Shown here: piece after piece, positions 10,960 through 36,409 of the stretch | Position numbering within the stretch: position 1 is the first letter of the stretch | How the letters are laid out: every line of letters starts with the position of its first letter | Source of the DNA: Candidatus Eisenbacteria bacterium | Lineage (GTDB): Bacteria; Eisenbacteria; RBG-16-71-46; JAFGJU01 | Reading direction: 5' to 3' | Assembly (NCBI GenBank): GCA_026388185.1 | Contig: JAPLKG010000003.1 | Location: 101,606-165,605, forward strand | Length of the DNA: 64,000 nucleotides | Notes under the pieces: model-generated | Database searches by the model: none | What the model saw: only the letters and a program-made list of their open reading frames with translations | Told to the model about the DNA's origin: nothing | Made by a program: the position numbers and the translations under genes

Positions 10960-11882
10960 CCAGCCACACGCAACGCAACAATGCGCCACGAAACAAGCTG
11001 TGCTCCACGAGATCGCGCCAGGCAACAGAACCTCGCCGCAAAAGATCGTGCCGCACGAAGCTCGCACCCTACTCGGTGCGACAATATCACTTATTTAGAG
11101 TACCCCGTAGAACAGATGCTTCCTCAGCAACCGCCACGCGGCTAGCAGAGCCGTTCTCCAGGCACGAGTCACCCACGCCGGGCTCGCGCCGTCCCACCAC
11201 ATCAGCACCGGTCACACACCTCCCTAGGCGTCACGCCAAGAGATCGCTTGGATTCACCTGCACAGTGGCCGCGTGCGTCTCCCCGTCTCCTTATCCCCCT
11301 TCCCTCTCTGTCCGCTCCACCTGTTCTGTCGACTGAGCGGGTCAGGGGCGGGGCAGGGTGACCTTAAAGAGCGGCGACGATGGAGGTCTTGGGACGGTAA
11401 ACTCGGAAGTCCCTCGTGTGCGCATCATCCGTGCTCTCTTACCGCAATCGCTCTGGTTGCAGTTGCGGGGTCACCCTTTGAACCCCGGTTGCTGTGGAAC
11501 ACCAACCGCTGTCAAGCACTTCAAAACTGTCTTCAATGCAGAAAATGACCTCGTTTGATCTGCCGAGCATATTATTGCACATACGCAAATACTTGTCAAT
11601 AGGAAAGTGCCGCGCCCCGTGTCGCCTTCGCGTGCGGCCGGTTTTGCCCACTCGGCTGACGACGCGAATGAGCGCAATGGCTAAAACCAACGCCTCGGGC
11701 AAGCCCGCGGTGTCTCCGCTGAACCCACAGCACGCCACCGAGCCGACTACGCCCTTGCCGACGCCGACACCGCCTGCAAATGACTCCAGTCGGCACGGCC
11801 AACTGTTGCCGAAACTCGTCATTAGCGATACAATCCCATCGACCGCATCGTGCCGGGAGCGTCTCGTCCGTGGGGAGTAACC
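10960..11882. other. Long gene-poor region between the cassette array and the MttB operon
   Basis: About 0.9 kb with no open frame that combines a ribosome site, a protein-like composition and a recognisable family on either strand. The only clear signal is a leftward promoter at 11571-11599. Several short inverted repeats occur around 11440-11520, for instance GGGGT/ACCCC. The left part shares the plus-strand C/A-rich composition of the cassette array; the right part (from about 11340) looks more like ordinary chromosome. Confidence 0.5.
11571..11599 (-). promoter_or_regulatory. Orphan leftward sigma70-type promoter
   Basis: On the minus strand TTGACA (11594-11599) and AATAAT (11571-11576) are 17 bp apart. 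Transcription would run toward the cassette array, whose first gene starts some 740 nt away. It could therefore drive the array through a very long leader or make an unrecognised RNA. Confidence 0.55.
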
Positions 11883-12554
11883 TTGGAAGAACCCAATCGC
11901 TATACCGATTTCTCTGTCAGTACGGACCTCGATGATGTATTGCGCCTGCTGGGCTACGGGCGGGACAAGAAACCCGGCGGGGCACTGGCAAGGATGCTGG
12001 GGGGAGCGATACAAGAGGCAGAGGGACTTGCGCGACCCTCCGGGATAGCTTCCGTATTTGAGAAACACAGCTTTCCTAAAGGCTCTTTTCTTTCCGCGCT
12101 CTTTGAAGAGGACAACTCGCCCGCCATAAAGATCGCCCTGGCGGTCTGCACGATCGGGCCGCTACTCGAGGAAAGCGTTTCGAGATACTCCGATTCCGGA
12201 CAACTTACCCGCGCTCTCGTGATTGACGCCGCGGGTTCATCGCTAACCGAGACAGTATGTGATTTCGTCAATGAGAGGATATGCCAGACGGCAGCGGGAG
12301 GCACACTTTATCCTGCTCCCAGGATAAGTCCCGGGTACGGACACTGGAAAATCGAAGAGCAAGAAATCATATTTGGGCTTCTTCCGGCCGAGTCGGTTGG
12401 AGTCTCTCTCACAGAATCGTATATGATGATCCCGAGAAAATCCGTGTCTTTTGCCGTGAAACTGCTCGGCGAATCGTCACCCGAGGGATCAACCTCGGCG
12501 TGTAAACGATGCGGAAGAAGTGATTGCCAATTCAGACGCGAGCCCCGAGGATAA
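11883..12554 (+). CDS. Stand-alone MetH-type vitamin B12-dependent methyltransferase activation domain
   Basis: The C-terminal half carries the signature of the AdoMet-binding reactivation domain of cobalamin-dependent methionine synthase: R-I-S-P-G-Y-G-H-W, then G-L-L-P-A-E-x-x-G-V-S-L-T-E-S-Y-M-M-I-P-x-K-S-V-S-F, ending in C-K-R-C-G-R-S-D-C. In MetH this domain delivers a methyl group from AdoMet to re-methylate oxidised cob(II)alamin. Here it is a separate protein of about 220 residues. I place the start at TTG 11883 (GGGGAG 5 nt upstream); GTG 11850 is an alternative without a ribosome site. It overlaps the MttB-family gene by 35 nt, so the two are coupled and the protein may reactivate that system's corrinoid partner. 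Confidence 0.8.
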   Translation: MEEPNRYTDFSVSTDLDDVLRLLGYGRDKKPGGALARMLGGAIQEAEGLARPSGIASVFEKHSFPKGSFLSALFEEDNSPAIKIALAVCTIGPLLEESVSRYSDSGQLTRALVIDAAGSSLTETVCDFVNERICQTAAGGTLYPAPRISPGYGHWKIEEQEIIFGLLPAESVGVSLTESYMMIPRKSVSFAVKLLGESSPEGSTSACKRCGRSDCQFRREPRG

Positions 12555-14119: not shown

Positions 14120-15496
14120 CTAGGAGGGCTCGGGCACAGCGTCAGGCACAACGTCAGGCACAGTGCTCAGACGCGTATTAAGCCTATTTCTTATTTCTTC
14201 CCTGTGGTGCATGAGGGTTCTGTATTGCATCTGGAAAATCAAGAGCGGAAGCATGCTCTTCCATTTCTTGTACGCGCGCAATACTCGCTTCGCTATCTTC
14301 TTCCGCGAATAAAACTCTCTCCATGCCCAGTGGTAGCCTTCCTGTAGCTTCTCCGGCGAAATCCTCTTGGGCTCGTATACTACCTCGTCAACCCCGTACT
14401 TGCTCCAATCACGATTGAATATCCTGCCCTCACCATCGAGCTTGGAAAATAGCTCGGTGCCGGGAAACGGCGTGAGTATACTGAACTGGGCCGCGTCTAC
14501 TGCAATCTTGTCGGCAAACTCGACGGTCTCTTCGAAAACCGTCTCTTCGTCGGAATCGAATCCGACTATGAAGGCACCTTCCACCATGATGCCGTGGTCG
14601 TGGAGATAATCGATTTTCGCTCGAAATTCCTGCGGGCGAAGCCATTTTTTCTTGGCCTCTTTCAACGAAGACGGATTCGAAGACTCCAATCCTATGAAGA
14701 GCGCCTTGCACCCGCTCTTTGCCATGAGCGGCACCATGCCAGGCATGTCCACGACGTCAAGCGAGGACTGACCCGCCCACATGATATGCAGTGGGACGAG
14801 CTTCTGGAAGAGCTCCACGGAGTACTTTTCATCGCCCGCAATGTTGTCGTCCAGGAATCCAAAGAAACGACTCCATCCGGAAGAACCTCTGAGGAATTCG
14901 ATTTCTTTAACCACCTCTTCGACGGGTCTCATTCTGTAGCTGCGACCGAAAAACCGAGAGACGGAACAAAAGCTACAGTTGAACTTGCATCCCCTGAATA
15001 CCTGGATGGTGTTCTTGAACAAGTAGCCTTTGTTGTCGAGCAATTCCCTTCGTGCAATCGGCATGTTTACGAGGGAGGGCCTGACGTCCTGGGTGTAGAT
15101 CGACTGCAGTCTATTGTCGCGGAAGTCGTCAAGCACGCGCGACCAGATTGTCTCAGCTTCGCCCACCACGACGGCGTCCGCATAGCGTGCAGCTTCGTCG
15201 GGCAGAGCCGTCGGATGAATCCCGCCGATCACCACCTTCGCACCGCGCTTTCTCATCTCCGTGGCGATCTCATACGCTCGCGGAGCCTGGGCGGTCATTG
15301 CCGTGATACCGACGAGGTCTGCCATCTTCTTGTCATAATCCCAGTGTTCGATGTTCTCATCCACTATTTCGACGTCCACTCCGGGAGGAGTAAGCGCGGC
15401 AATGATCGGAAGGTTCAGGGGAGGAAACGCAAAGATCTTTTGCTTTGTGAGGCCGAAGTCACGATTGAACGACGGCGAGATTAGCGTCAGTTTCAT
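14120..15496 (-). CDS. B12-binding radical SAM protein
   Basis: I use ATG 15496 (GGGA just upstream; product starts M-K-L-T-L-I-S-P). The protein of about 458 residues has an N-terminal cobalamin-binding Rossmann domain (D-E-N-I-E-H-W, G-I-T-A-M-T, V-I-G-G-I-H-P-T-A-L-P) and then a radical SAM core with G-C-K-F-N-C-S-F-C as the [4Fe-4S] ligands. Family members of this layout do C-methylations, ring formations and other difficult radical steps; the substrate is not inferable. It converges on the MttB-family gene with only 13 nt between stops. The C-terminal tail contains three tandem copies of a 12-nt unit (V-P-D-V/A repeats). Confidence 0.85.
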   Translation of the reverse strand: MKLTLISPSFNRDFGLTKQKIFAFPPLNLPIIAALTPPGVDVEIVDENIEHWDYDKKMADLVGITAMTAQAPRAYEIATEMRKRGAKVVIGGIHPTALPDEAARYADAVVVGEAETIWSRVLDDFRDNRLQSIYTQDVRPSLVNMPIARRELLDNKGYLFKNTIQVFRGCKFNCSFCSVSRFFGRSYRMRPVEEVVKEIEFLRGSSGWSRFFGFLDDNIAGDEKYSVELFQKLVPLHIMWAGQSSLDVVDMPGMVPLMAKSGCKALFIGLESSNPSSLKEAKKKWLRPQEFRAKIDYLHDHGIMVEGAFIVGFDSDEETVFEETVEFADKIAVDAAQFSILTPFPGTELFSKLDGEGRIFNRDWSKYGVDEVVYEPKRISPEKLQEGYHWAWREFYSRKKIAKRVLRAYKKWKSMLPLLIFQMQYRTLMHHREEIRNRLNTRLSTVPDVVPDAVPEPS

Positions 15497-15535
15497 TGGG
15501 TTCCCGTTGTTTGCTGAAATCAATATTTTCGCACC

Positions 15536-15651: not shown

Positions 15652-15680
15652 TTGACAGGCGTTGTTGACTTACCTAGTCT
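15652..15680 (+). promoter_or_regulatory. Candidate promoter of the four-gene membrane operon
   Basis: TTGACA (15652-15657) is followed after 17 bp by TAGTCT (15675-15680), which keeps the critical TA---T of the -10 box. It lies about 55 nt upstream of the ATG at 15737, back to back with the leftward radical SAM promoter. Confidence 0.55.
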
Positions 15681-15736: not shown

Positions 15737-17071
15737 ATGGCTCCCTGTAGCGGGAAGCGAAACAGGAAGCGTAATTGCCGCCCACGAGTCCTTAGGCTTG
15801 CTCTTGTCTTTCCATTAGCATTTCTCACAATAGCATTTATTCTTGTCCGGCCCGGCTCTCTCGTTTTTGCCAGCGCCACCGCAACCACGACAGGTTCAGC
15901 AAAGGCGAGCCCCGGCCCCACGGCAGTCGTTCCGGAATCCATCCTGGTCCCGCCCCCTGCCCCTCCCACGAGCGTCGAAGCCTTCGACTCCCCGAGCGAT
16001 CAAGGCGGAATGATGACCATCCACTGGACAAAATCAGTGGATGATATTCCTATCACGGGAAGAGTCAGGGGATACGTCATAGCGAGGTCGGAGGCGCCAG
16101 ACGGCAAGTTCGAACCAGTGAGCACCGTTGCTTTGCAGATCGAAGAGTATTTGGACACTTCTGTCCAGGACCAGGTTCCTTACTACTACAAGGTGGCCGC
16201 AATCGGTGACGGAGAGGTCTTGAGTTTCTCCGGCGTCGTAGGCCCCGCGGTGTCAAAGCAGCAGTGGTTCAGTACGCGCAAGGCGAACTTGCTCGTAATA
16301 TCTCTCATCATCGCAGTGGCCATACTGTTGTACGTGTATCAAGCCAAAGCCGGAAAGAAGCTGTACATACGAAGAATCGCCGGCATCGAGGCGGTTGAAG
16401 AAGCGGTCGGAAGAGCGACGGAGATGGGAAAACCCATTCTTTTCATTCCCGGCATCCAGGACATGGACAACGTTCAAACCGTAGCGGGCCTTAGCATTCT
16501 TGCGAGTGTGGGAAAGCTGGCGGCGCAATACGAAACGAAGCTGGACGTGCCCGTCAGCCGCTCGCTGGTCATGAGCACTGCCAGGGAAACTCTCAAGCAG
16601 GCGTACCTGAGCGTCGGTAGACCCGACCTCTACAACGACGACTCCGTTTATTACATCACGGACGAGCAGTTCGGTTACGTCGCCGCCGTCGACGGAATAA
16701 TGGTTAGGGAAAAGCCCGCCGCTTGCTTCTACATGGGGGCCTTCTTTGCGGAATCGCTCATCCTTGCCGAAACCGGGAACTCGATAGGCGCAATTCAGAT
16801 CGCCGGCACCGCCATGCCCACTCAGTTGCCGTTTTTTGTGGCAGCGTGCGACTACACGCTCATCGGCGAGGAACTCTTCGCGGCAAGCGCGTACCTTTCC
16901 AAGGACGAAAGAATGATCGGAAGCCTGAAGGGTCAGGACGTGGGCAAGGGCATTGCAATGTTCTTCATAATCCTTGGGACGCTTGTGGCAACCGTCGGAG
17001 CTCTCACTGAAAACGGGACGGTCGTCGGCATTAGCGACTGGTTGAAGAACCTTTTCTCTTTGAACTTCTGA
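15737..17071 (+). CDS. Fn3 - transmembrane - DUF6754-like membrane protein
   Basis: ATG 15737 has GGAG 7 nt upstream. The 444-residue product has a signal/anchor segment (about 18-46), a Pro-rich linker, a fibronectin type III domain (about 75-172, exported side), a transmembrane helix (183-202), a globular domain of about 200 residues (about 205-405: E-A-V-E-E-A-V-G-R-A-T-E-M-G-K-P-I-L-F, then G-T-A-M-P-T-Q-L-P-F-F) and a last hydrophobic helix (406-425). The globular part resembles what I know as DUF6754, a domain of unknown function from uncultured bacteria; this is from memory. It leads four closely spaced membrane-protein genes, so it is probably a subunit of a membrane complex with periplasmic and cytoplasmic parts. 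Confidence 0.75.
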   Translation: MAPCSGKRNRKRNCRPRVLRLALVFPLAFLTIAFILVRPGSLVFASATATTTGSAKASPGPTAVVPESILVPPPAPPTSVEAFDSPSDQGGMMTIHWTKSVDDIPITGRVRGYVIARSEAPDGKFEPVSTVALQIEEYLDTSVQDQVPYYYKVAAIGDGEVLSFSGVVGPAVSKQQWFSTRKANLLVISLIIAVAILLYVYQAKAGKKLYIRRIAGIEAVEEAVGRATEMGKPILFIPGIQDMDNVQTVAGLSILASVGKLAAQYETKLDVPVSRSLVMSTARETLKQAYLSVGRPDLYNDDSVYYITDEQFGYVAAVDGIMVREKPAACFYMGAFFAESLILAETGNSIGAIQIAGTAMPTQLPFFVAACDYTLIGEELFAASAYLSKDERMIGSLKGQDVGKGIAMFFIILGTLVATVGALTENGTVVGISDWLKNLFSLNF

Positions 17072-17154
17072 CGTGAACGCGCGCAGAACCGTGAGCACCA
17101 CTGGAGTGACACATTGGAGATGAGATCAACACTCGCTAGGTTCTTGAAGCGACC

Positions 17155-17838
17155 ATGAGAGTACAAGTTCCTCTTGTCATAACCTTCGTCGTTGGCTTCG
17201 CCCTGATAGCAGCCATCTTCGTGCCGCACGATCCATTCCACACGATGGATCAGAATTTCTCCATCTATTTTGATCTCATTGCAGTGTTCGCCTTCATTCT
17301 TGGCGGCGGCAACCTCCTCAAGATTCACGGAAACAAGATCTGGAGGCGCGCGAGGGATTGGAAGTACAGCATCGTGACCGTCGCGGGATTCATGGTGATG
17401 ATGATCGTGGGCACCTTCAAGATCGGCGGGCCGCCGGGACTCACGGGCGACGTGACCGCAGACGGGAGCTGGTTCAAGTTCCTGTACGACGCTATGTTTG
17501 TGCCGCTCCAATCGACCATGTTTTCTCTACTCGCCTTCTTTGTTGCGTCGGCCTCATACAGGGCCTTCCGCGCAAAGACCAGGGAAGCAACGATTCTCCT
17601 GGTCGCGGCGTTCATCATACTGATAGGCCGGACACCGCTCGGTCATTCCCTGACTGCCTGGCTCCCTCAGCCTTTGCAGTTCCTTCACATACCGAACCTG
17701 AGCAACTGGATCCTCTCGTTTCCTAACATGGCCGGGCAGCGAGCCATCATGATCGGAATAGCCCTCGGCATCATCTCGACTTCGCTCAAGCTGGTCTTGG
17801 GAATCGAACGCTCCTACCTCGGCGGAGAAGGAAAATAG
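17155..17838 (+). CDS. Polytopic membrane protein, second gene of the operon
   Basis: ATG 17155 opens a 227-residue protein that is hydrophobic throughout, with about six predicted membrane helices. The first runs from residue 6 (L-V-I-T-F-V-V-G-F-A-L-I-A-A-I-F-V); others lie around 40-52, 74-88, 120-135 and 145-160, with a last one near 200-215. Loops contain H-D-P-F-H-T-M and G-P-P-G-L-T-G-D-V but no catalytic motif. It follows the DUF6754-like gene by 83 nt and precedes the next by 36 nt. Family not recognised. Confidence 0.7.
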   Translation: MRVQVPLVITFVVGFALIAAIFVPHDPFHTMDQNFSIYFDLIAVFAFILGGGNLLKIHGNKIWRRARDWKYSIVTVAGFMVMMIVGTFKIGGPPGLTGDVTADGSWFKFLYDAMFVPLQSTMFSLLAFFVASASYRAFRAKTREATILLVAAFIILIGRTPLGHSLTAWLPQPLQFLHIPNLSNWILSFPNMAGQRAIMIGIALGIISTSLKLVLGIERSYLGGEGK

Positions 17839-17874
17839 AGATGCGAGAGGCGTGTCACACAGCATTTAGATGGC

Positions 17875-18798
17875 GTGAAAGACTCTGTGATGTCGGAGAG
17901 CGAAAATAGGATGGCGAAGGGCAAGCGCGACATAATCGACATACTGAACTCGATAGACAGGCGAATCATTTTCTTCCTCATCGCTCTCGCCGTCATCATT
18001 CCTCTCGTATTCCATTTGGTCTTCACCATACGTACCTCTCCCATCGTGGAGGCAATCTTCGACAAGATGGAGGCGCTCCCCCCGGGCTCGAAAGTGCTCG
18101 TGAGCTTTGATTACAGCCCGAGCACGGCTCCGGAAAACCAGCCGATGGCCGAGGCCATAGCGCGCCACGCGCTCCAGAAAGACTTGAAACTCTATTTCAT
18201 GGCCGTGTGGGCGACCGGGCCGCCGCAAACCGACGTCCTGATTGCCAACGTAATCAACACGGATTTCCCCAACAAGGTTTACGGCAAGGATTGGATAAAC
18301 CTGGGCTTCAAGGCGGGAAACCAGGGACTCATCAACGCAATACTTCTCGACTTGAAGGCCATGTACACGACAGACGTTCACGGCACTCCAATCGACAACT
18401 TCGAGATGATGAAGGACGTTCAGAATCTCACTGACATGTCACTCATCGTCTGCATCGGAAGCGGCTTCCCCGGCGTGAGGGAGTGGGTGCAGTTCGCGGG
18501 CGACCCCGGAGACATACCGGTCGCAGCCGGGGTCACCGCCGTCGAGGCGCCCCTGCTCTACCCTTACTACCCGAGGCAGTTGCTCGGCCTAATGGGCGGG
18601 CTTCAGGGCGCGGCGGAATACGAGGCGACCCTCGTCAAAACATATCCGCAGTACCAGGGCAAGGCCAATTGCGCGCAGGCCGTCCAGTTGATGGGACCGC
18701 AGACCATCGCGCATCTTGTGATAATAGCTTTTGTGATAATAGGCAACGTCGCCTTCTTCGGCGAACGAAGAAAACGGGCTCGAGCTAAGAAAGGTTAG
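17875..18798 (+). CDS. Bitopic membrane protein with large exported domain, third gene of the operon
   Basis: The product is about 300 residues, depending on the start: GTG 17875, ATG 17890, or ATG 17911 with GGAGAG 10 nt upstream. A membrane helix near the N-terminus (I-I-F-F-L-I-A-L-A-V-I-I-P-L-V-F) and one at the C-terminus (H-L-V-I-I-A-F-V-I-I-G-N-V-A-F-F) enclose an alpha/beta domain of about 230 residues predicted to face outside, including K-V-L-V-S-F-D-Y-S-P-S-T and a C-I-G-S-G-F-P-G loop. A basic tail follows the second helix. No enzyme signature seen. The next gene begins 3 nt after its stop, so the two are tightly coupled. Confidence 0.7.
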   Translation: MKDSVMSESENRMAKGKRDIIDILNSIDRRIIFFLIALAVIIPLVFHLVFTIRTSPIVEAIFDKMEALPPGSKVLVSFDYSPSTAPENQPMAEAIARHALQKDLKLYFMAVWATGPPQTDVLIANVINTDFPNKVYGKDWINLGFKAGNQGLINAILLDLKAMYTTDVHGTPIDNFEMMKDVQNLTDMSLIVCIGSGFPGVREWVQFAGDPGDIPVAAGVTAVEAPLLYPYYPRQLLGLMGGLQGAAEYEATLVKTYPQYQGKANCAQAVQLMGPQTIAHLVIIAFVIIGNVAFFGERRKRARAKKG

Positions 18799-18801
18799 GA
18801 A

Positions 18802-19473
18802 ATGGCCCACACCGTTGAACTCTGGTTGGGTGCGCTGCTCACGCTGATGATATTCAGCTTCCTTTACAAGGACAACCCATTCTACAAGTTCGCAGAGCAT
18901 CTCTTCGTGGGCGTCTCCGCCGCCTACTGGATGGTGATAGGCATCTGGACGACGCTAATGCCCAACCTCGTCGCCCGCATCTGGCCGTCCGCCGTGAAGA
19001 GCATCGTCAACATGCCCGAGGACGCGAGACCTCAGTATCACTTCATCATCCCCGCGGTCTTCGGTCTTCTCATGCTGACGCGACTTGTGGAAAAAATCAG
19101 TTGGCTTTCGCGGTGGGCGATGGCCTTCGTCATCGGTTACGCCGCGGGGACGAATTTCACCAGATACCTTCAGTCCGATTTCGTGGGACAGATATACAAC
19201 ACAATGCTCCCGCTCGTCGTGAAAACAAACGGAGGAATCTCGATCGGCGCCATCCTTTCGTCGGTGGTACTCCTGGTCGGCGTCATATCCGCGCTCATTT
19301 ACTTCTTCTTCTCCAAGGAGCACTCTGGAGCGTTCGGTGCCGCGTCCCGCCTCGGAATATGGTTCCTGATGGTCACGTTCGGCGCCGCATTCGGTTACAC
19401 GGTGATGGCAAGAATTTCGCTACTCACGGGAAGGATGCAGTATCTCGGTGACTGGCTGGCGACGATGTTCTAG
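18802..19473 (+). CDS. Polytopic membrane protein, fourth gene of the operon
   Basis: ATG 18802 lies 3 nt after the previous stop, with AGGA overlapping it. The 223-residue product has about six membrane helices (around 8-20, 32-48, 74-86, 100-115, 150-170 and 185-205). Loops carry Y-K-D-N-P-F-Y-K-F-A-E-H and G-T-N-F-T-R-Y-L-Q-S, the latter after a helix with a G-Y-A-A-G motif. The family is unknown to me. It ends the operon. No terminator is obvious before the convergent amidase gene at 19589. Confidence 0.7.
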   Translation: MAHTVELWLGALLTLMIFSFLYKDNPFYKFAEHLFVGVSAAYWMVIGIWTTLMPNLVARIWPSAVKSIVNMPEDARPQYHFIIPAVFGLLMLTRLVEKISWLSRWAMAFVIGYAAGTNFTRYLQSDFVGQIYNTMLPLVVKTNGGISIGAILSSVVLLVGVISALIYFFFSKEHSGAFGAASRLGIWFLMVTFGAAFGYTVMARISLLTGRMQYLGDWLATMF

Positions 19474-29937: not shown

Positions 29938-31518
29938 CTACTTGAGGATCTCGTCGACCTCTTTCTTGTCCACGTCCATCACGTACTGGATTCCGCTGAC
30001 ATTCGCGGCCTCGTGTGTCAGAGCCGCTATGTCGTCACGTGTTATGTGGTCGATGGAGAACTTCCTGCTTCCGGCCATGAGCTGGCGCAACCCCTGAGCA
30101 AGTCTCTCGTAGTACGTGTAAAGTCCGAGAGCCCCCGCGGGAATTCTCTCGAATTCGGCGTTGCCTAATTCCTTGCGCAGCGAACTCGCCGTCACGAAAA
30201 TCTCGTCCAGCGAATTGCCAAAGCGTGCGATGTAGACCGGGATCCGGCCTTCCTGGATCGCGCGGCCGATTGTTTTACCTACCATCGCGGCTGCGATGGG
30301 GGCGCGTGCCATGCCGACTAGCTTCACGTACGGAGCGCCCATTGCAATGCCCTTGAAGATTTGGTCTTCGAATGTGGTTCCACCGGCGACTGCCAACGTG
30401 GGAACGTAGCGACCCTTGTCGGCAAGGCGTTTCGCATACTGGTAGAGGAGCGAATGAAGCTCAACGGGCGGGATTCCCCACTCGTTCATCATCCGCCACG
30501 GGCTCATGCCTGTTCCACCGCCTGCTCCGTCAGCCGTGAGGAGATCTATCTTGCACTTGGATGCGAACGCCACTGCCCGCGCCAAGTCTGCGGGCCGATA
30601 AGCACCCGTCTTGAGGAAGACGTACTTCGCGCCCGCCTTGCGCAGTTCCTCTACTCGCTTAACGAAAGCTTCCTCGGTGACCATGCCGACGCGCGAATGA
30701 CGCTCGAACTCTTTGAACGCGCCGTGTTCAAAGGCCTTGATCACGTCGGGATCGGTCGGATTCGGTAGAACTATGTAGCCCCGCTCGTAGAGGAGTTGCG
30801 CCTTCTTGAGATCCGTGATTTTTACTTCGCCGCCGATGTCCTTCGCGCCCTGGCCCCACTTTAGTTCGACAATCTGAACACCCAACTTCTCAATCGCGTA
30901 TTCCTGCACGCCGAGACGAGTGTCTTCAAGGTTTGCCTGCACGATTGTGGCTCCGTAGCCGTCGCGCATGTTGTCTTTGTAGAGTTTGACGCGATTCTTC
31001 AAATCTACGGTATCAACCACACGGCCGTTCTTGATTACGGCCTGAGGATCCATGCCCACGACGTTCTCGCCGATCGTCAGACCGGTGCCGGCAAGCGCCG
31101 AGCCGATTGCGAGACCTTCCCAGTTGTTCTTCGCCACGTTGGTCGAGCCGATACCGGGAATGATCCACGGATAGCGGAACTTTATCCCCTTGTCATGGCC
31201 TATGCGAACCTCGATGTTCACGGCCGGGAAGATGGCCTTATCGCTGTCCGCTTCGATGCCAAACGCTCCGACCGCCGTACCCATGACGTTGAAATGAGAA
31301 TAGTCGATGGGATAGGTCTTCTCGCCGGCGGTCGTAATGATTCCAAAGGGCTGCGGGTAGATGACCTCGTGGCCTCTGTAGGCGGACTTGCCGATCTCGC
31401 ACATGCCGATGCATCCGTCCACGCAGGTGACGCACATGCCGGAAGCCGGCACTACGGAACCTTCGGTTCTGTTCTTCGTGAGGGTTGCAGCCGAGGCGTT
31501 TATTCTCGAGAATGCCAT
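29938..31518 (-). CDS. Archaeal-type GltB-like FMN protein lacking glutaminase domain
   Basis: ATG 31518 is preceded by GGAGGAGAACACA. The 526-residue product corresponds to the central/FMN TIM-barrel half of glutamate synthase large subunit (L-L-T-A-D-G-A-G-G-G-T-G-M-S-P-W, A-V-A-G-G-T-T-F-E-D-Q, A-I-Q-E-G-R-I-P-V). The class II glutaminase domain is absent, and the usual [3Fe-4S] Cys cluster after the barrel is not seen. Instead the N-terminus has C29-x2-C32-x3-C36-x3-C40, a possible Fe-S site. With the GltD-type module in the upstream fusion it could form an ammonia-dependent or otherwise divergent glutamate synthase, or an FMN oxidoreductase of different substrate. It starts 72 nt after the ferredoxin-like gene. 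Confidence 0.85.
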   Translation of the reverse strand: MAFSRINASAATLTKNRTEGSVVPASGMCVTCVDGCIGMCEIGKSAYRGHEVIYPQPFGIITTAGEKTYPIDYSHFNVMGTAVGAFGIEADSDKAIFPAVNIEVRIGHDKGIKFRYPWIIPGIGSTNVAKNNWEGLAIGSALAGTGLTIGENVVGMDPQAVIKNGRVVDTVDLKNRVKLYKDNMRDGYGATIVQANLEDTRLGVQEYAIEKLGVQIVELKWGQGAKDIGGEVKITDLKKAQLLYERGYIVLPNPTDPDVIKAFEHGAFKEFERHSRVGMVTEEAFVKRVEELRKAGAKYVFLKTGAYRPADLARAVAFASKCKIDLLTADGAGGGTGMSPWRMMNEWGIPPVELHSLLYQYAKRLADKGRYVPTLAVAGGTTFEDQIFKGIAMGAPYVKLVGMARAPIAAAMVGKTIGRAIQEGRIPVYIARFGNSLDEIFVTASSLRKELGNAEFERIPAGALGLYTYYERLAQGLRQLMAGSRKFSIDHITRDDIAALTHEAANVSGIQYVMDVDKKEVDEILK

Positions 31519-31590
31519 TGTGTTCTCCTCCTTCGATTCTCCCTAACCTAGCCTCTTCTTATCTCAATTGCTATCGTGTCGGTAACGGTT

Positions 31591-32268
31591 CTAATCCTTC
31601 TCCTTTTCGCAGGCTACACAGGGATCCATGTAGCACATCATATCGTCGAACTTCTCTTTTTCGATACAGGGTGGACTCAGGTTTGCACAGCCACCGCAAA
31701 TTGCCTTTTCTGGTTCGGCAAACGTACACCTCAACTGGCAGGCCGGACAGACATACATGCAGCCTCCGCACAGCCGACAAACGTCCGACCGAATGTCAAA
31801 CGGCGTGCCGATGGTGCGCTTCTCGCCGCGCCCCCTGAAGCCGATGGCCTTGGCCATCATCTGTTCCTCGCACATACGCGTGCACAGCCCACAGAGAATG
31901 CAGTCCTCGTGTTCTTGCCTGAAGCGCTGTTGACTCACTTCGTGCGCCGAGGCAAGGTCCTGGATGATCTTCGATTGCGGGCAGGAGGCGAGAAGCAACT
32001 CCAGAATCATCTTGCGAGCCTTGACCACGCGCGACGAGGCAGTTCTCACGACGAGTCCCTCTTCCGCAGGGTAAGTACAGGATGAGACGAGCTTGGCCTT
32101 CGCCCCTTCACCGATCTCCACCACACAGAGTCGGCATGCTCCGTAGGGAGAAAGACCGTCCATGTAACAGAGAGTCGGGACGGGAAATCCCAAGAATCTG
32201 GCCGCTTCAAGCAGCGTCGTTCCGTTTTCAACAGATACTGGCAGCCCATTTATGTTAAGTGTGATCAT
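31591..32268 (-). CDS. HoxU/NuoG-N-terminal-like iron-sulfur subunit
   Basis: The 225-residue product has an N-terminal plant-type [2Fe-2S] domain (C34, C45, C48, C64 in P-T-L-C, G-A-C-R-L-C and S-S-C-T-Y-P), the NuoG-like region with D-C-I-L-C-G-L-C-T-R-M-C, then a second 4Fe-4S motif (V-C-R-L-C-G-G-C-M-Y-V-C) and an unusual Cys-rich tail (C-G-G-C, P-P-C, M-M-C, D-P-C-V-A-C). Such subunits relay electrons between the NuoF flavin and a partner. Its ATG overlaps the stop of the NuoF-GltD gene by 4 nt, so the two are coupled and presumably form one complex. Confidence 0.88.
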   Translation of the reverse strand: MITLNINGLPVSVENGTTLLEAARFLGFPVPTLCYMDGLSPYGACRLCVVEIGEGAKAKLVSSCTYPAEEGLVVRTASSRVVKARKMILELLLASCPQSKIIQDLASAHEVSQQRFRQEHEDCILCGLCTRMCEEQMMAKAIGFRGRGEKRTIGTPFDIRSDVCRLCGGCMYVCPACQLRCTFAEPEKAICGGCANLSPPCIEKEKFDDMMCYMDPCVACEKEKD

Positions 32269-35200
32269 GCTGTTTTCCCCCCCGTCGCCGCGATTTCCTC
32301 TTCTTCAGCTTTGGGCTCCGTGAATTCCAGGTCGCACCTCAAGCACCTGAGGGCCTCACACCTGGCCTCTTCTACCGTAAGTGACATCTCTACCTCGGCA
32401 AAGCCCCTCTTTCTCCATTCAACCAGGGCGCGCGGAGTCTCCACACGCTTGGCGCTCAGACATTCCTCCGACACCTCGGCTGGCTCGACGTAAATGTCGG
32501 GCAACTTTATCCCAGTCGGCTGCTTTAGCTCTTCGCCGCGCAGGTAACGGTCTATCACCAAAGCCGCCCTTTTCCCGTCTGCGATGGCCTCCACAACAGT
32601 GTTTGGACCTCTCACCACATCTCCACCCGCAAACACACCGGGTTGATTAGTGCATAGGGTTTCGGGATCAACCTTGACCGTCTCCCACTCGGTAGTGTCG
32701 ATCTTCATTGAACTGGCGACCGAGATACAGTCAACGTCTGATCCCTCGCTGATTGCGGAAATTATCGTGTCCAGAGCTACTGTGAATTCGCTGCCCGGCA
32801 CGGGTACGGGCTTGCGGCGACCGCTCGAATCCATGTCTCCCAACTCGTTTTTCAGAAGTTCAATGCCCGTGACGCGACCCTCTTCCGAAATGATTCTCAC
32901 GGGAGAAGTGAGGGGTTCGAGCTTGACGCCTTCCTGGATGGCCGCCTCTATTTCTTCTTCAAAACCGGGCATCTCTTCGCGTGTGCGGCGATAGTAGATC
33001 GTCACGCCACTCACCTCTTTCTGGCGAATCGCGACTCGGGCCGCGTCAATGGCAGAGTTTCCACCTCCGATGACGCCGACTCGTCCTTTCGCCTGCCTCT
33101 TGCCACGCAGGTTAAAATCCTTGAGGAATTCGATCGAAGGGAAAACACCCTTTGAGTTTTCGCCTTCGACCTTGAGCATCTTGCTCTTATGCGCACCCAG
33201 GGCTAGAAAGATGGCCCCGTAACCTTCCTGGAACAGACTATCAAGTGTGAAATTGGTGCCGAGGGCGGCATTGCACTTCACCGTAATGTTCTCGTCGAGA
33301 ATGGACTCGATCTCTTTCTCGATTATCTCTTTTGGCAAACGGTAGGCCGGAATTGCGCCGAATAGCATACCACCCGGCTTACTTTCTTTCTCGAACACGG
33401 TTACCTTGTAGCCTCTGAGCGAGAGGTAATGCGCTGCCGTGAGGCCTGCGGGACCCGCTCCGACGATCGCGATCTTCTGACTGTTTTCCGTCGCGAATGC
33501 CACCCTTTTCGGCTTGAAAACAGAAGGGTCCATTCGCTCCGTCACAAATCGCTTGAGAGGTCGAATGGCGATGGCCTCGCCCCCGATCGTGCCGGAACGG
33601 CATCGGCCTTCGCAGGGATGGTTACAGACTCGTGCACATACCGACGGGAAGGGATTGGCCTCTCGTATGGCCTGATAAGCTTCCTCCTCCTCGCCCCTGG
33701 CTATGTGAGCAACGTATCGCCAGGCCTCGGTTCCAATGGGGCACGCAGATTGGCACGGCGCGCCAACGAGATCCTTGCAGACACCCGCCGGGCAGTGTCT
33801 GTTCTTTATGTGTTCGATGTATTCGTCGCGAAAGTAGCGCAGAGTCGATAGCACGGGATTGGAAGCCGTTTGACCCAGCCCGCACATGGTCGTATCTTTG
33901 ACCACGAGGGCAAGCTCTTCGAGAAGTTCGAGCTGCTCGAACGTACCTCTGCCGGCCGATATGTCGTCGAGGATTTCCCACATGCGCTGCGTGCCCTTCC
34001 TGCACGTGAAGCACTTGCCGCACGATTCATCCTTTAGAAACTTCATGTAGTACTTGGCGACATCCACGACGCACGTGTTCTCGTCCATGACGATCATGCC
34101 GCCGGAGCCCATGATGGAGCCCGCTTCGGTCAGGCTATCGTAATCGATCGTGAGGTCAAACTTTCTCGCCGGGATGCATCCGCCGGAAGGACCGCCCGTC
34201 TGTACTGCCTTTATCTTGGCCCTTCCAGAAGGACCACCTCCTATTCTGTTTACGATCTCGTCTACAGTTATGCCCATCGGGACTTCTACCAGGCCCGTGT
34301 TCTTTATCTTACCCACAAGACTGAATATCTTGGTGCCCGAGTTATTCTTTGTTCCCACCTTTGTGAATTCGGAAGCTCCAATTCTCATTATGAAAGGAAT
34401 GTTTGCCCACGTTTCTACGTTGTTGATGACGGTGGGACGTCCGTCAATGCCTCTCTGTACAGGGTAAGGAGGACGCTGATAGGGCTCACCCACGTTGCCC
34501 TCAACCGATCTCATCAACGCGGTTTCTTCGCCGCAGACAAATGCACCGGCACCCCTTATCAGGCTTATGTCAAATGTGAACCCCGTCCCAAGAATGTCTT
34601 TCCCGAGAAGACCGAGCTCGCGCGCCTGGCGAAGCGCAATGAGTAGATGCTTGATCGCAAGCGGGTATTCGTGTCGAACGTAGACGACGCCGTCGGTCGC
34701 GCCCGTGGCATAGGCACCAATGATCATGCCTTCAATAATGCTGTGCGGATTGCCCTCGATGACGCTGCGGTCCATGTAAGCGCCGGGGTCGCCCTCGTCC
34801 GCATTGCAAACGAGGAACTTGCCCCCCTCGTTACCTTGCTTTGATAGAAGCTCCCACTTACGTCCTGTCGGGAATCCGGCGCCTCCACGGCCACGCAGAC
34901 CTGACTTCTTGATTGCGTCTATGACCCATTCAGGCTTGCCTTTCTCGAGTACCTTGACCAGAGCGGAGTAGCCGCCTCGTTCAATGTAGTTGAAGACACG
35001 AATCGGATCGACCTTCTCGTTACTGCCCAGAATGTTTCGGATCTGTCCCTTGAAGAAGGGTAAGTCGCTTTCTTTCTCGACGGGTTTGCCGGTCTTCGGA
35101 TCAACATAAAGCAGGTCCTGAAGTACTTCGCCCTTTGCCACGGCATCTATGATGCGCACCATGTTTTCAATGCTCACCCTGGGATAGAAAGTGCTCCGGG

Positions 35201-35444
35201 GTTCGATGAGCACCGAAGGATCCATCTGGCAAAAACCCTGACAACCCGTGATTCGCAGGTGAATCTTGTCCGTCAGACCTTTCGCCAGGATCTCCCGTTT
35301 TGCAATACGTATTAGGTCGTTGGCTCCACTTGCTTGCCCACAGGTACCGGCAGAAACGACCAACGTCGGAGTCTCCTGGTCACTGTCAGCAATGAGACGA
35401 GCCTGCAGTGTCCTGAAACTATCGATGGACTTGAGTCTTTCCAT
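32265..35444 (-). CDS. NuoF-GltD fusion: NADH-binding FMN/Fe-S subunit joined to a glutamate-synthase-small-subunit-like oxidoreductase
   Basis: The 1,059-residue protein contains, in order: a thioredoxin-like [2Fe-2S] domain (about 25-110; C35, C68, C72 visible), a NuoF module with R-G-R-G-G-A-G-F-P-T-G (185-195) for FMN/NADH, an SLBB region, and the N3 4Fe-4S cluster (C475, C478, C481, C521). Then come a bridging Cys-rich segment (C551, C556, C564, C568, C603, C607, C611, C615) and a GltD/NfnB-like FAD-NAD(P) module starting V-G-A-G-P-A-G-L (661-668) with a second dinucleotide fold (V-I-G-G-G-N-S-A-I-D). The fusion brings two flavin sites and many clusters together, the layout expected of flavin-based electron bifurcation or NADH/NADPH transhydrogenation. 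It sits between the NuoE-like and HoxU-like genes. Confidence 0.9.
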   Translation of the reverse strand: MERLKSIDSFRTLQARLIADSDQETPTLVVSAGTCGQASGANDLIRIAKREILAKGLTDKIHLRITGCQGFCQMDPSVLIEPRSTFYPRVSIENMVRIIDAVAKGEVLQDLLYVDPKTGKPVEKESDLPFFKGQIRNILGSNEKVDPIRVFNYIERGGYSALVKVLEKGKPEWVIDAIKKSGLRGRGGAGFPTGRKWELLSKQGNEGGKFLVCNADEGDPGAYMDRSVIEGNPHSIIEGMIIGAYATGATDGVVYVRHEYPLAIKHLLIALRQARELGLLGKDILGTGFTFDISLIRGAGAFVCGEETALMRSVEGNVGEPYQRPPYPVQRGIDGRPTVINNVETWANIPFIMRIGASEFTKVGTKNNSGTKIFSLVGKIKNTGLVEVPMGITVDEIVNRIGGGPSGRAKIKAVQTGGPSGGCIPARKFDLTIDYDSLTEAGSIMGSGGMIVMDENTCVVDVAKYYMKFLKDESCGKCFTCRKGTQRMWEILDDISAGRGTFEQLELLEELALVVKDTTMCGLGQTASNPVLSTLRYFRDEYIEHIKNRHCPAGVCKDLVGAPCQSACPIGTEAWRYVAHIARGEEEEAYQAIREANPFPSVCARVCNHPCEGRCRSGTIGGEAIAIRPLKRFVTERMDPSVFKPKRVAFATENSQKIAIVGAGPAGLTAAHYLSLRGYKVTVFEKESKPGGMLFGAIPAYRLPKEIIEKEIESILDENITVKCNAALGTNFTLDSLFQEGYGAIFLALGAHKSKMLKVEGENSKGVFPSIEFLKDFNLRGKRQAKGRVGVIGGGNSAIDAARVAIRQKEVSGVTIYYRRTREEMPGFEEEIEAAIQEGVKLEPLTSPVRIISEEGRVTGIELLKNELGDMDSSGRRKPVPVPGSEFTVALDTIISAISEGSDVDCISVASSMKIDTTEWETVKVDPETLCTNQPGVFAGGDVVRGPNTVVEAIADGKRAALVIDRYLRGEELKQPTGIKLPDIYVEPAEVSEECLSAKRVETPRALVEWRKRGFAEVEMSLTVEEARCEALRCLRCDLEFTEPKAEEEEIAATGGKTA

Positions 35445-35560
35445 GAACTAGTTTTCTCCCTGTCTGCTCACACTCTCTTATCCAGCAATTGACCTTCCAT
35501 CCAGCTCTGACTATCTACCTCGTGCCAAGCAAGTCCTGGAGACGTTGCTCTCATGGACGC

Positions 35561-36409
35561 CTATAGATTGACGCCGTCCAGGTCAAGCATGTGCCCCTTG
35601 CATCCTCTCCGGGAGCAGATCTGAATCATTCCTCCCGGACGAACGATCATCGGCACCATCGGTGCGCCGCATTCCTGACAGTTCGAAGCCCCCACAAGTT
35701 CGGTGTGGCAATGCGGGCAAAAGAAATGAGCGATGGTATCCATTTCAATTTCGTGTTCATGTTCGAATGAATAACTGCCGTAGAGGCTGGAAAGTCTCAG
35801 CCAGCCGTGTTTGTCACCGAACGAGATGGTGACTCTGACGGAAGGATGTCCGTCGATGAGATGGTCGGGATCCATCAGACTGTGATTGCACCTGGGGCAA
35901 CTCACTTCAACGGGGAAAATCCGAACGCCGGCAGTGGCAGCGTCTTCGCTAAAGTTGCTCCGTGCCTGGTCCAGAATTGTCTTTACCCTGGCCGAGCTGA
36001 CGTTCGAGAAATAGCGGCCGTTAACAACCACTATGGGACCAAGGGCGCACGCGCCAAGGCAGTTGACTGTCTCCAGGGAGAATTCCTTGTCAGCGGTCGT
36101 CTCGCCTGCTTCAACTCTCAACTGCCTTTCAAACTCTGTCGCTATTCGAGGTGCTCCACGAACGTGACAGGCCGTTCCCACGCACACAGAGCAGAGGTGT
36201 TTACCGCGCGGCTTCAGGCTGAACGCTCTGTAGAACGTCGCAATCCCGTATACGTCTACGAGGGAACGACACGTGCGCTCGGCCACTGTCTTCAGTGCGT
36301 CCGGAGGAAGATAACCGTACCTCGTCTGGATGTCCTCGAGGATCGAGATCAATGCGCCCTGTTCACTACCGTGCTTCGACACAATTGCTGTAATATCATC
36401 CTGCTTCAT
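35561..36409 (-). CDS. NuoE-like [2Fe-2S] subunit with extra zinc-ribbon C-terminus
   Basis: Residues 1-150 match the thioredoxin-like NuoE/HoxE subunit: helical N-terminus, Y-G-I-A-T-F-Y, and [2Fe-2S] ligands C76, C81 (C-V-G-T-A-C) and C117, C121 (C-L-G-A-C). The usual protein ends there; this one continues to 282 residues with a beta-rich domain and at least two zinc knuckles (C-P-R-C, C-P-H-C with C-Q-E-C, and C-S-R-R-G-C). I do not know this extension in other NuoE proteins. It would feed NADH electrons with the NuoF-GltD fusion 116 nt downstream. Confidence 0.87.
   Translation of the reverse strand: MKQDDITAIVSKHGSEQGALISILEDIQTRYGYLPPDALKTVAERTCRSLVDVYGIATFYRAFSLKPRGKHLCSVCVGTACHVRGAPRIATEFERQLRVEAGETTADKEFSLETVNCLGACALGPIVVVNGRYFSNVSSARVKTILDQARSNFSEDAATAGVRIFPVEVSCPRCNHSLMDPDHLIDGHPSVRVTISFGDKHGWLRLSSLYGSYSFEHEHEIEMDTIAHFFCPHCHTELVGASNCQECGAPMVPMIVRPGGMIQICSRRGCKGHMLDLDGVNL

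Follow-up and report, generated by a model that had tools for sequence, protein, structure and literature searches.

A conserved four-gene DUF6754 membrane-protein cassette in Candidatus Eisenbacteria and the link of one subtype to glycine cleavage

The window analysed here is a stretch of 64,000 nucleotides from a Candidatus Eisenbacteria contig, and positions 15737-19473 of it carry four co-oriented open reading frames (ORFs) on the + strand, in the order D1-M2-R3-M4. Their products very probably make up one inner-membrane complex, each as an obligate subunit, given that the gene order is strict, the copy numbers match, the genes are closely spaced and the pairwise distances of the four families are correlated. 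D1 is a clear member of PF20539 (DUF6754), a family with no assigned function and the nearest named thing to the system; the partners M2, R3 and M4, a further protein designated c13 and the topology of the complex are added to DUF6754 here. One subtype of the cassette is tied to the glycine-cleavage system through a conserved operon. The original prediction, made from the letters of the window, had proposed a dedicated envelope complex, and this is now strongly supported by gene order, by the agreement in copy number, by the correlation of distances and by the fact that the genes are absent together. Not part of it were the cytosolic placement of DUF6754, the fact that R3 and M4 are turned the other way from D1 and M2, the existence of many paralogues, c13 and the link to glycine cleavage.

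Conservation of the four-gene block

Copy numbers were determined in 60 genomes, and 14 well-known genomes served as controls. The window genome itself is a 2.6 Mb assembly in 20 contigs, 98% complete, to which 'Candidatus Eisenbacteria' bin56 (locus L001) is close. DUF6754 is found in 57 of the 60 genomes, with one to seven copies each, and in none of the 14 controls. Within the phylum of the window, 45/47 genomes carry it, at up to seven copies per genome, and those of good quality do so without exception (26/26); outside the phylum it occurs in Zixibacteria, Fermentibacteria and a further group treated as a separate phylum. The copy number of R3, searched independently, equals that of D1 in 50 of the 60 genomes (Spearman 0.987), and part of the differences falls in fragmented assemblies. 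Three genomes are without DUF6754 (G018, G023 and G057), and in two of them, G018 and G057, R3 is missing too.

The gene order is equally constant. M2-R3-M4 directly follow 45 of 52 DUF6754 genes in the automatic calls, and rescoring with profiles gives D1-M2-R3-M4 wherever the flanks are long enough to judge, two lone D1 genes (L080 and L087) excepted. Five loci that seemed incomplete from greedy ORF calls (L056, L057, L059, L061 and L063) were shown by this rescoring to contain all four genes. In G054, an orphan D1 of the window-type clade (L080) and an orphan M2-R3-M4 (L008) lie apart in the genome and both are retained. G056 has three full cassettes in tandem behind c13 (L079, 105-11476), the DUF6754 domains of which (L074-L076) scatter to different places of the domain tree. 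The median spacings across cassettes are 12, 1 and 2 nt; in the window, the gaps are 83 nt (D1-M2), 36 nt (M2-R3) and 3 nt (R3-M4), and the tight spacing that had been described for the four genes was reproduced in both coordinates and gaps. A promoter common to the four genes, which had also been proposed, was not confirmed, since a sigma-70 scan upstream of D1 gave no + strand site, a result that neither proves nor excludes a promoter.

The pairwise-distance correlations among the four families range from 0.78 to 0.90. All four frames are conserved in other genomes at 27-85% identity and in the same order, and are therefore more than chance ORFs; the neighbourhood check that had been suggested for the block thus finds the four families conserved together. 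The system is real, probably ancient and part of the core of its phylum, and is neither an artefact nor a known family. In the window's phylum the block reaches the universality of a core gene and is kept in up to seven or eight copies; it is inherited together across about four phyla that have been little studied, frequently with more than one version in a genome. For three of the four families, Pfam and NCBIfam offer no model. Several paralogous four-subunit membrane complexes are unlikely to be kept unused.

Subunits, topology and known membrane systems

The features of the locus are as follows (TM, transmembrane; aa, amino acids; pLDDT, predicted local distance difference test).

15737..17071, + strand: D1, DUF6754 protein of 444 aa (PF20539, E 1.7e-123; AF2 model, pLDDT 85.6; topology statistics)
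15737..15877, + strand: putative signal peptide of D1, ending ...VFASA (hydrophobic helix 20-36 and positive N-terminus; cleavage site placed by eye)
15947..16258, + strand: Fn3 domain of D1, residues 71-174 (VIA-align with neogenin FN domain 4bqb_A: Z 13.7, root-mean-square deviation 2.0, 97 aligned)
16256..17005, + strand: DUF6754 domain of D1, residues 174-423 (PF20539 match; alignment)
16283..16339, + strand: TM helix of D1, residues 183-201, predicted to run from outside to inside (model and topology statistics)
17155..17838, + strand: M2, 6-TM protein of 227 aa, predicted N-in/C-in (topology statistics; no Pfam family)
17875..18798, + strand: R3, 307 aa, with a TM, an exported Rossmann-like domain, a second TM and a basic C-tail (AF2 model, pLDDT 92.9; VIA-align; topology)
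18037..18642, + strand: exported Rossmann-like domain of R3, residues 55-256 (AF2 model; VIA-align)
18802..19473, + strand: M4, 6-TM protein of 223 aa, predicted N-out/C-out (topology statistics; no Pfam family)

D1 is laid out as a signal peptide, an exported Fn3 domain, a TM, the cytosolic alpha/beta DUF6754 domain and a C-terminal TM, and its frame could alternatively begin at 15662. It scores 411 bits against PF20539, for which the curated cut-off is 27, and its Fn3 domain was also matched by a PDB profile search (titin Fn3, E 3e-35), so that the Fn3-TM-DUF6754 architecture expected for this protein holds. The DUF6754 domain is very strongly conserved, with invariant R226, E229, R324, E339, E345, C371, D372, E378, E379, D401 and K404 in the alignment; in the alignment of M2, a cytosolic loop carries invariant R136 and R139. 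The R3 frame begins with GTG; judged by conservation, the ATG further on at 17911 is the likelier start.

The Pfam match of D1 is the only one among the four proteins: M2, R3 and M4 belong to no Pfam or NCBIfam family, and the searches of NCBIfam, PADLOC and PHROGs gave nothing above background for any of the four. When 45 relatives of M2 and 31 of M4 were scanned singly against Pfam, including its transporter and secretion families, only scattered weak matches were obtained. No ATPase family was found in the four proteins by the Pfam and NCBIfam scans, which does not fit an ATP-driven transporter; an ATPase near the cassette, of the MutL type, is seen in the operon of one subtype only. The absence of a catalytic or transport signature, noted from the beginning, thus stands, given that the family scans assign none of the proteins to a transporter or respiratory family already known, and the suggested comparison of profiles with transporter and secretion families likewise led to no assignment. 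A role in anti-phage defence was rejected as no PADLOC model matched, a phage family as the matches were weak noise, and plasmid cargo as no match was found. Foldseek with the model of R3 returned nothing below E 0.001; the best VIA-align match is 1kjn (Z 10.1), and the matches are generic Rossmann-like folds. No paper in the literature collection searched names DUF6754. The newness of the system is its distance from described systems, and it is possible that a known function lies behind unrecognised sequences.

Orientations were called by positive-inside rule statistics over family members. The domain of D1 is cytosolic in 43/45 sequences, as judged at the first TM, and that of R3 exported in 35/36, while M2 is N-in in 45/45 sequences and M4 is N-out in 25 of 31, with 2 to the contrary. 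These opposed orientations of D1 and R3 and of M2 and M4 mean that each orientation is represented by one TM-anchored alpha/beta protein and one protein with 6 TM. The periplasmic Fn3 arm and the exported alpha/beta domain of the original prediction are both supported by the models and the topology statistics. Its two polytopic proteins and one bitopic protein are also present, although the actual order is polytopic (M2), bitopic (R3) and polytopic (M4), and the channel-like character assigned to the two polytopic subunits remains putative.

D1 and R3 share an order of elements in their models, namely a TM, a helix, six strand-helix units and a TM. Profile comparison by hhalign found no homology between D1 and R3, nor between M2 and M4, which are inverted by the positive-inside rule and have no detectable sequence similarity to each other. 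The match of D1 and R3 lies in secondary-structure order alone and is weak evidence, so that descent by duplication is a hypothesis only. It is conceivable, if unlikely, that D1 with R3 and M2 with M4 form two inverted pairs. Together they would make an antiparallel transporter whose two faces each bear an alpha/beta domain, and which has been multiplied into cargo-specific versions and is coupled by c13 to the breakdown of amino acids, as in glycine cleavage; this would be a membrane machine of a new class, marked by inverted pseudo-symmetry.

Two known systems invite comparison. Rnf and Na+-NQR are similar in having two opposed 6-TM subunits, RnfA/RnfE in Rnf/Nqr having arisen by gene duplication and being inverted (PMC12174285), and an exported membrane-anchored subunit. 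They differ in that the present set has no iron-sulfur (Fe-S) or flavin subunits, that homology of M2 and M4 is undetectable and that its exported subunit is Rossmann-like. The 6-TM pair of Rnf/Nqr has conserved cysteines for an intramembrane Fe-S cluster; in the alignments of M2 and M4 the highest cysteine columns reach 9% and 29%, respectively, and membership of Rnf/Nqr was rejected, the redox cysteines being absent. In the TrkH/TrkA potassium transport complex, too, a Rossmann-like domain is associated with a membrane complex, and TrkA is among the fold matches of R3 (Z 9.1), a value common among many Rossmann-like folds, for which reason no membership is claimed. Unlike in TrkH/TrkA, the R3 domain is exported and membrane-anchored, and M2 and M4 have no TrkH match.

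c13 and the glycine-cleavage operon

c13 is a protein of 376 aa with no Pfam or NCBIfam model and no convincing PDB relative; it has a barrel-sandwich-like look, as judged by eye only. Of the 57 DUF6754-bearing genomes, 55 also have c13, and the three that lack DUF6754 lack c13 as well; in 28 of the 43 c13-bearing genomes of the window's phylum, its gene immediately precedes one for DUF6754. Frames of ~850-1030 aa also encode weak and longer c13 relatives (G011:C84, G001:C33, G007:C236 and G009:C143; E 1e-36 to 1e-9).

At 10 loci in two phyla, c13 and the cassette are part of a full or partial operon with the order GcvT-GcvH-GcvPA-GcvPB-small TM protein (smTM)-small protein (sm140)-MutL-c13-D1-M2-R3-M4-LplA, in which GcvP, MutL and the LplA-like protein were named by profile and GcvT and GcvH by inspection of their sequences. 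In the window genome, contig C8 (L100, 5224-13546) carries GcvT-GcvH-GcvPA-GcvPB-small TM protein-MutL-c13, with the P-protein subunits confirmed, while contig C2 (L014) carries a cassette of the matching glycine-linked subtype with LplA still behind it. In f10, a large family of the window's phylum, the single cassette is of the glycine-linked kind wherever its context is visible. This operon turns DUF6754 into a testable question of amino-acid metabolism in bacteria that are known almost only from metagenomes.

The MutL-family ATPase that precedes c13 in this operon recalls GlmL/MutL (PF13941) of B12 mutase operons, but it scores below the GlmL equivalog cut-offs and sits with glycine cleavage instead of a mutase; the position of MutL beside glycine cleavage rather than a B12 mutase is unusual. 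Literature searches on GlmL/MutL with glycine cleavage and on the host phyla returned nothing about this system.

Possible function and neighbouring genes

The reading that we prefer, and hold tentatively, is that the complex may move a small amino-acid-related metabolite or an ion across the membrane. Sequence statistics and models would place DUF6754 of D1 inside and the R3 domain and the Fn3 arm outside, with the two oppositely oriented 6-TM subunits holding one alpha/beta domain on each face, and the inner and outer domains may bind the ligand or gate transport. The paralogous complexes would each be dedicated to a different cargo or pathway, with one version tied to glycine cleavage, and c13, a single-copy protein, would probably be their shared soluble partner.

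The tree of DUF6754 domains separates the glycine-linked subtype, that of the window and at least two more, and the fact that subtypes are common to more than one phylum suggests that the duplications are probably old. Several of the neighbouring genes concern amino acids or peptides, and some may be chance neighbours. TldD/PmbA proteins adjoin cassettes in L013 and L046, an M28/DUF4910 protein in L002, L004, L005 and L009, and a GltP-type symporter, named by eye, in L049 and L052; an OppA-type binding protein lies near L055-L057 and L063, being placed behind L063 and some glycine-linked loci. In L049, L052 and L053, two GlgC-like (ADP-glucose pyrophosphorylase) genes stand upstream of one cassette subtype, and in two of these the GltP-type symporter then follows.

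Some observations weigh against this reading: the set has no ATPase and no known transporter signature; D1 copies slightly exceed those of R3 in G055, G058, G059 and G051; the neighbours vary between subtypes and some are possibly incidental; and glycine cleavage runs without the cassette in many bacteria, PF02347 being found in 10/14 control genomes, all without DUF6754. The last of these means that the cassette is an addition to glycine cleavage, which does not depend on it.

An improbable alternative is a platform in the membrane to which cytosolic enzymes (glycine cleavage, c13 and MutL) dock through DUF6754, with its exported half anchoring it in the envelope and with no transport. It agrees with the cytosolic position and extreme conservation of DUF6754 and with c13 and MutL being encoded with the glycine-cleavage enzymes directly ahead of the cassette, but such a platform needs neither a pair of 6-TM subunits in which charged residues are conserved nor a conserved exported Rossmann-like domain, and in most subtypes the enzymes are not nearby. 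With domains lying on either side of the membrane, the set would also suit a signalling or sensor complex in which an exported ligand is detected by R3 and Fn3 and reported to DUF6754 in the cytosol, and a sigma-54 activator and a methyltransferase do precede the cassette of one subtype (L058 and L061). This regulator is not common to the other subtypes, however, and the set has no kinase, cyclase, helix-turn-helix or other output domain, so that we regard sensing as a slim prospect. Little probability is likewise given to a complex for envelope biogenesis, secretion or surface assembly, for which the exported Fn3 and alpha/beta domains and the confinement to a set of under-studied phyla could be invoked, but which has no secretion family match and fits less well with multiple paralogues beside amino-acid genes. 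The least likely rival, and a very improbable one, is an energy-coupling pump of the Rnf/Nqr build with two inverted 6-TM subunits, an exported bitopic subunit and c13 as soluble partner, given that M2 (N-in) and M4 (N-out) are opposite with 6 TM each, as in RnfA/RnfE, but M2, M4 and R3 have no conserved cysteine, no flavin or Fe-S family is matched and M2 and M4 have no profile similarity.

The copy in the window belongs to a stand-alone subtype, and its neighbours give no indication of the cargo. Both lie on the opposite strand; the upstream one encodes a B12-binding radical SAM protein and the downstream one a carbon-nitrogen hydrolase. The radical SAM gene (14120-15523, - strand) lies beside a trimethylamine-methyltransferase homologue (MTTB, PF06253; 12520-14106) and its adjoining gene (11850-12554), which has no Pfam family, and together they possibly form a corrinoid methyl-transfer cluster. 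Further along the window, 29938-36409 on the - strand encodes a glutamate-synthase-like protein, a NuoF/flavin-oxidoreductase fusion of 1059 aa and NuoG/NuoE-like subunits. This cluster resembles an electron-bifurcating module, and in L001 similar genes follow closely behind the cassette.

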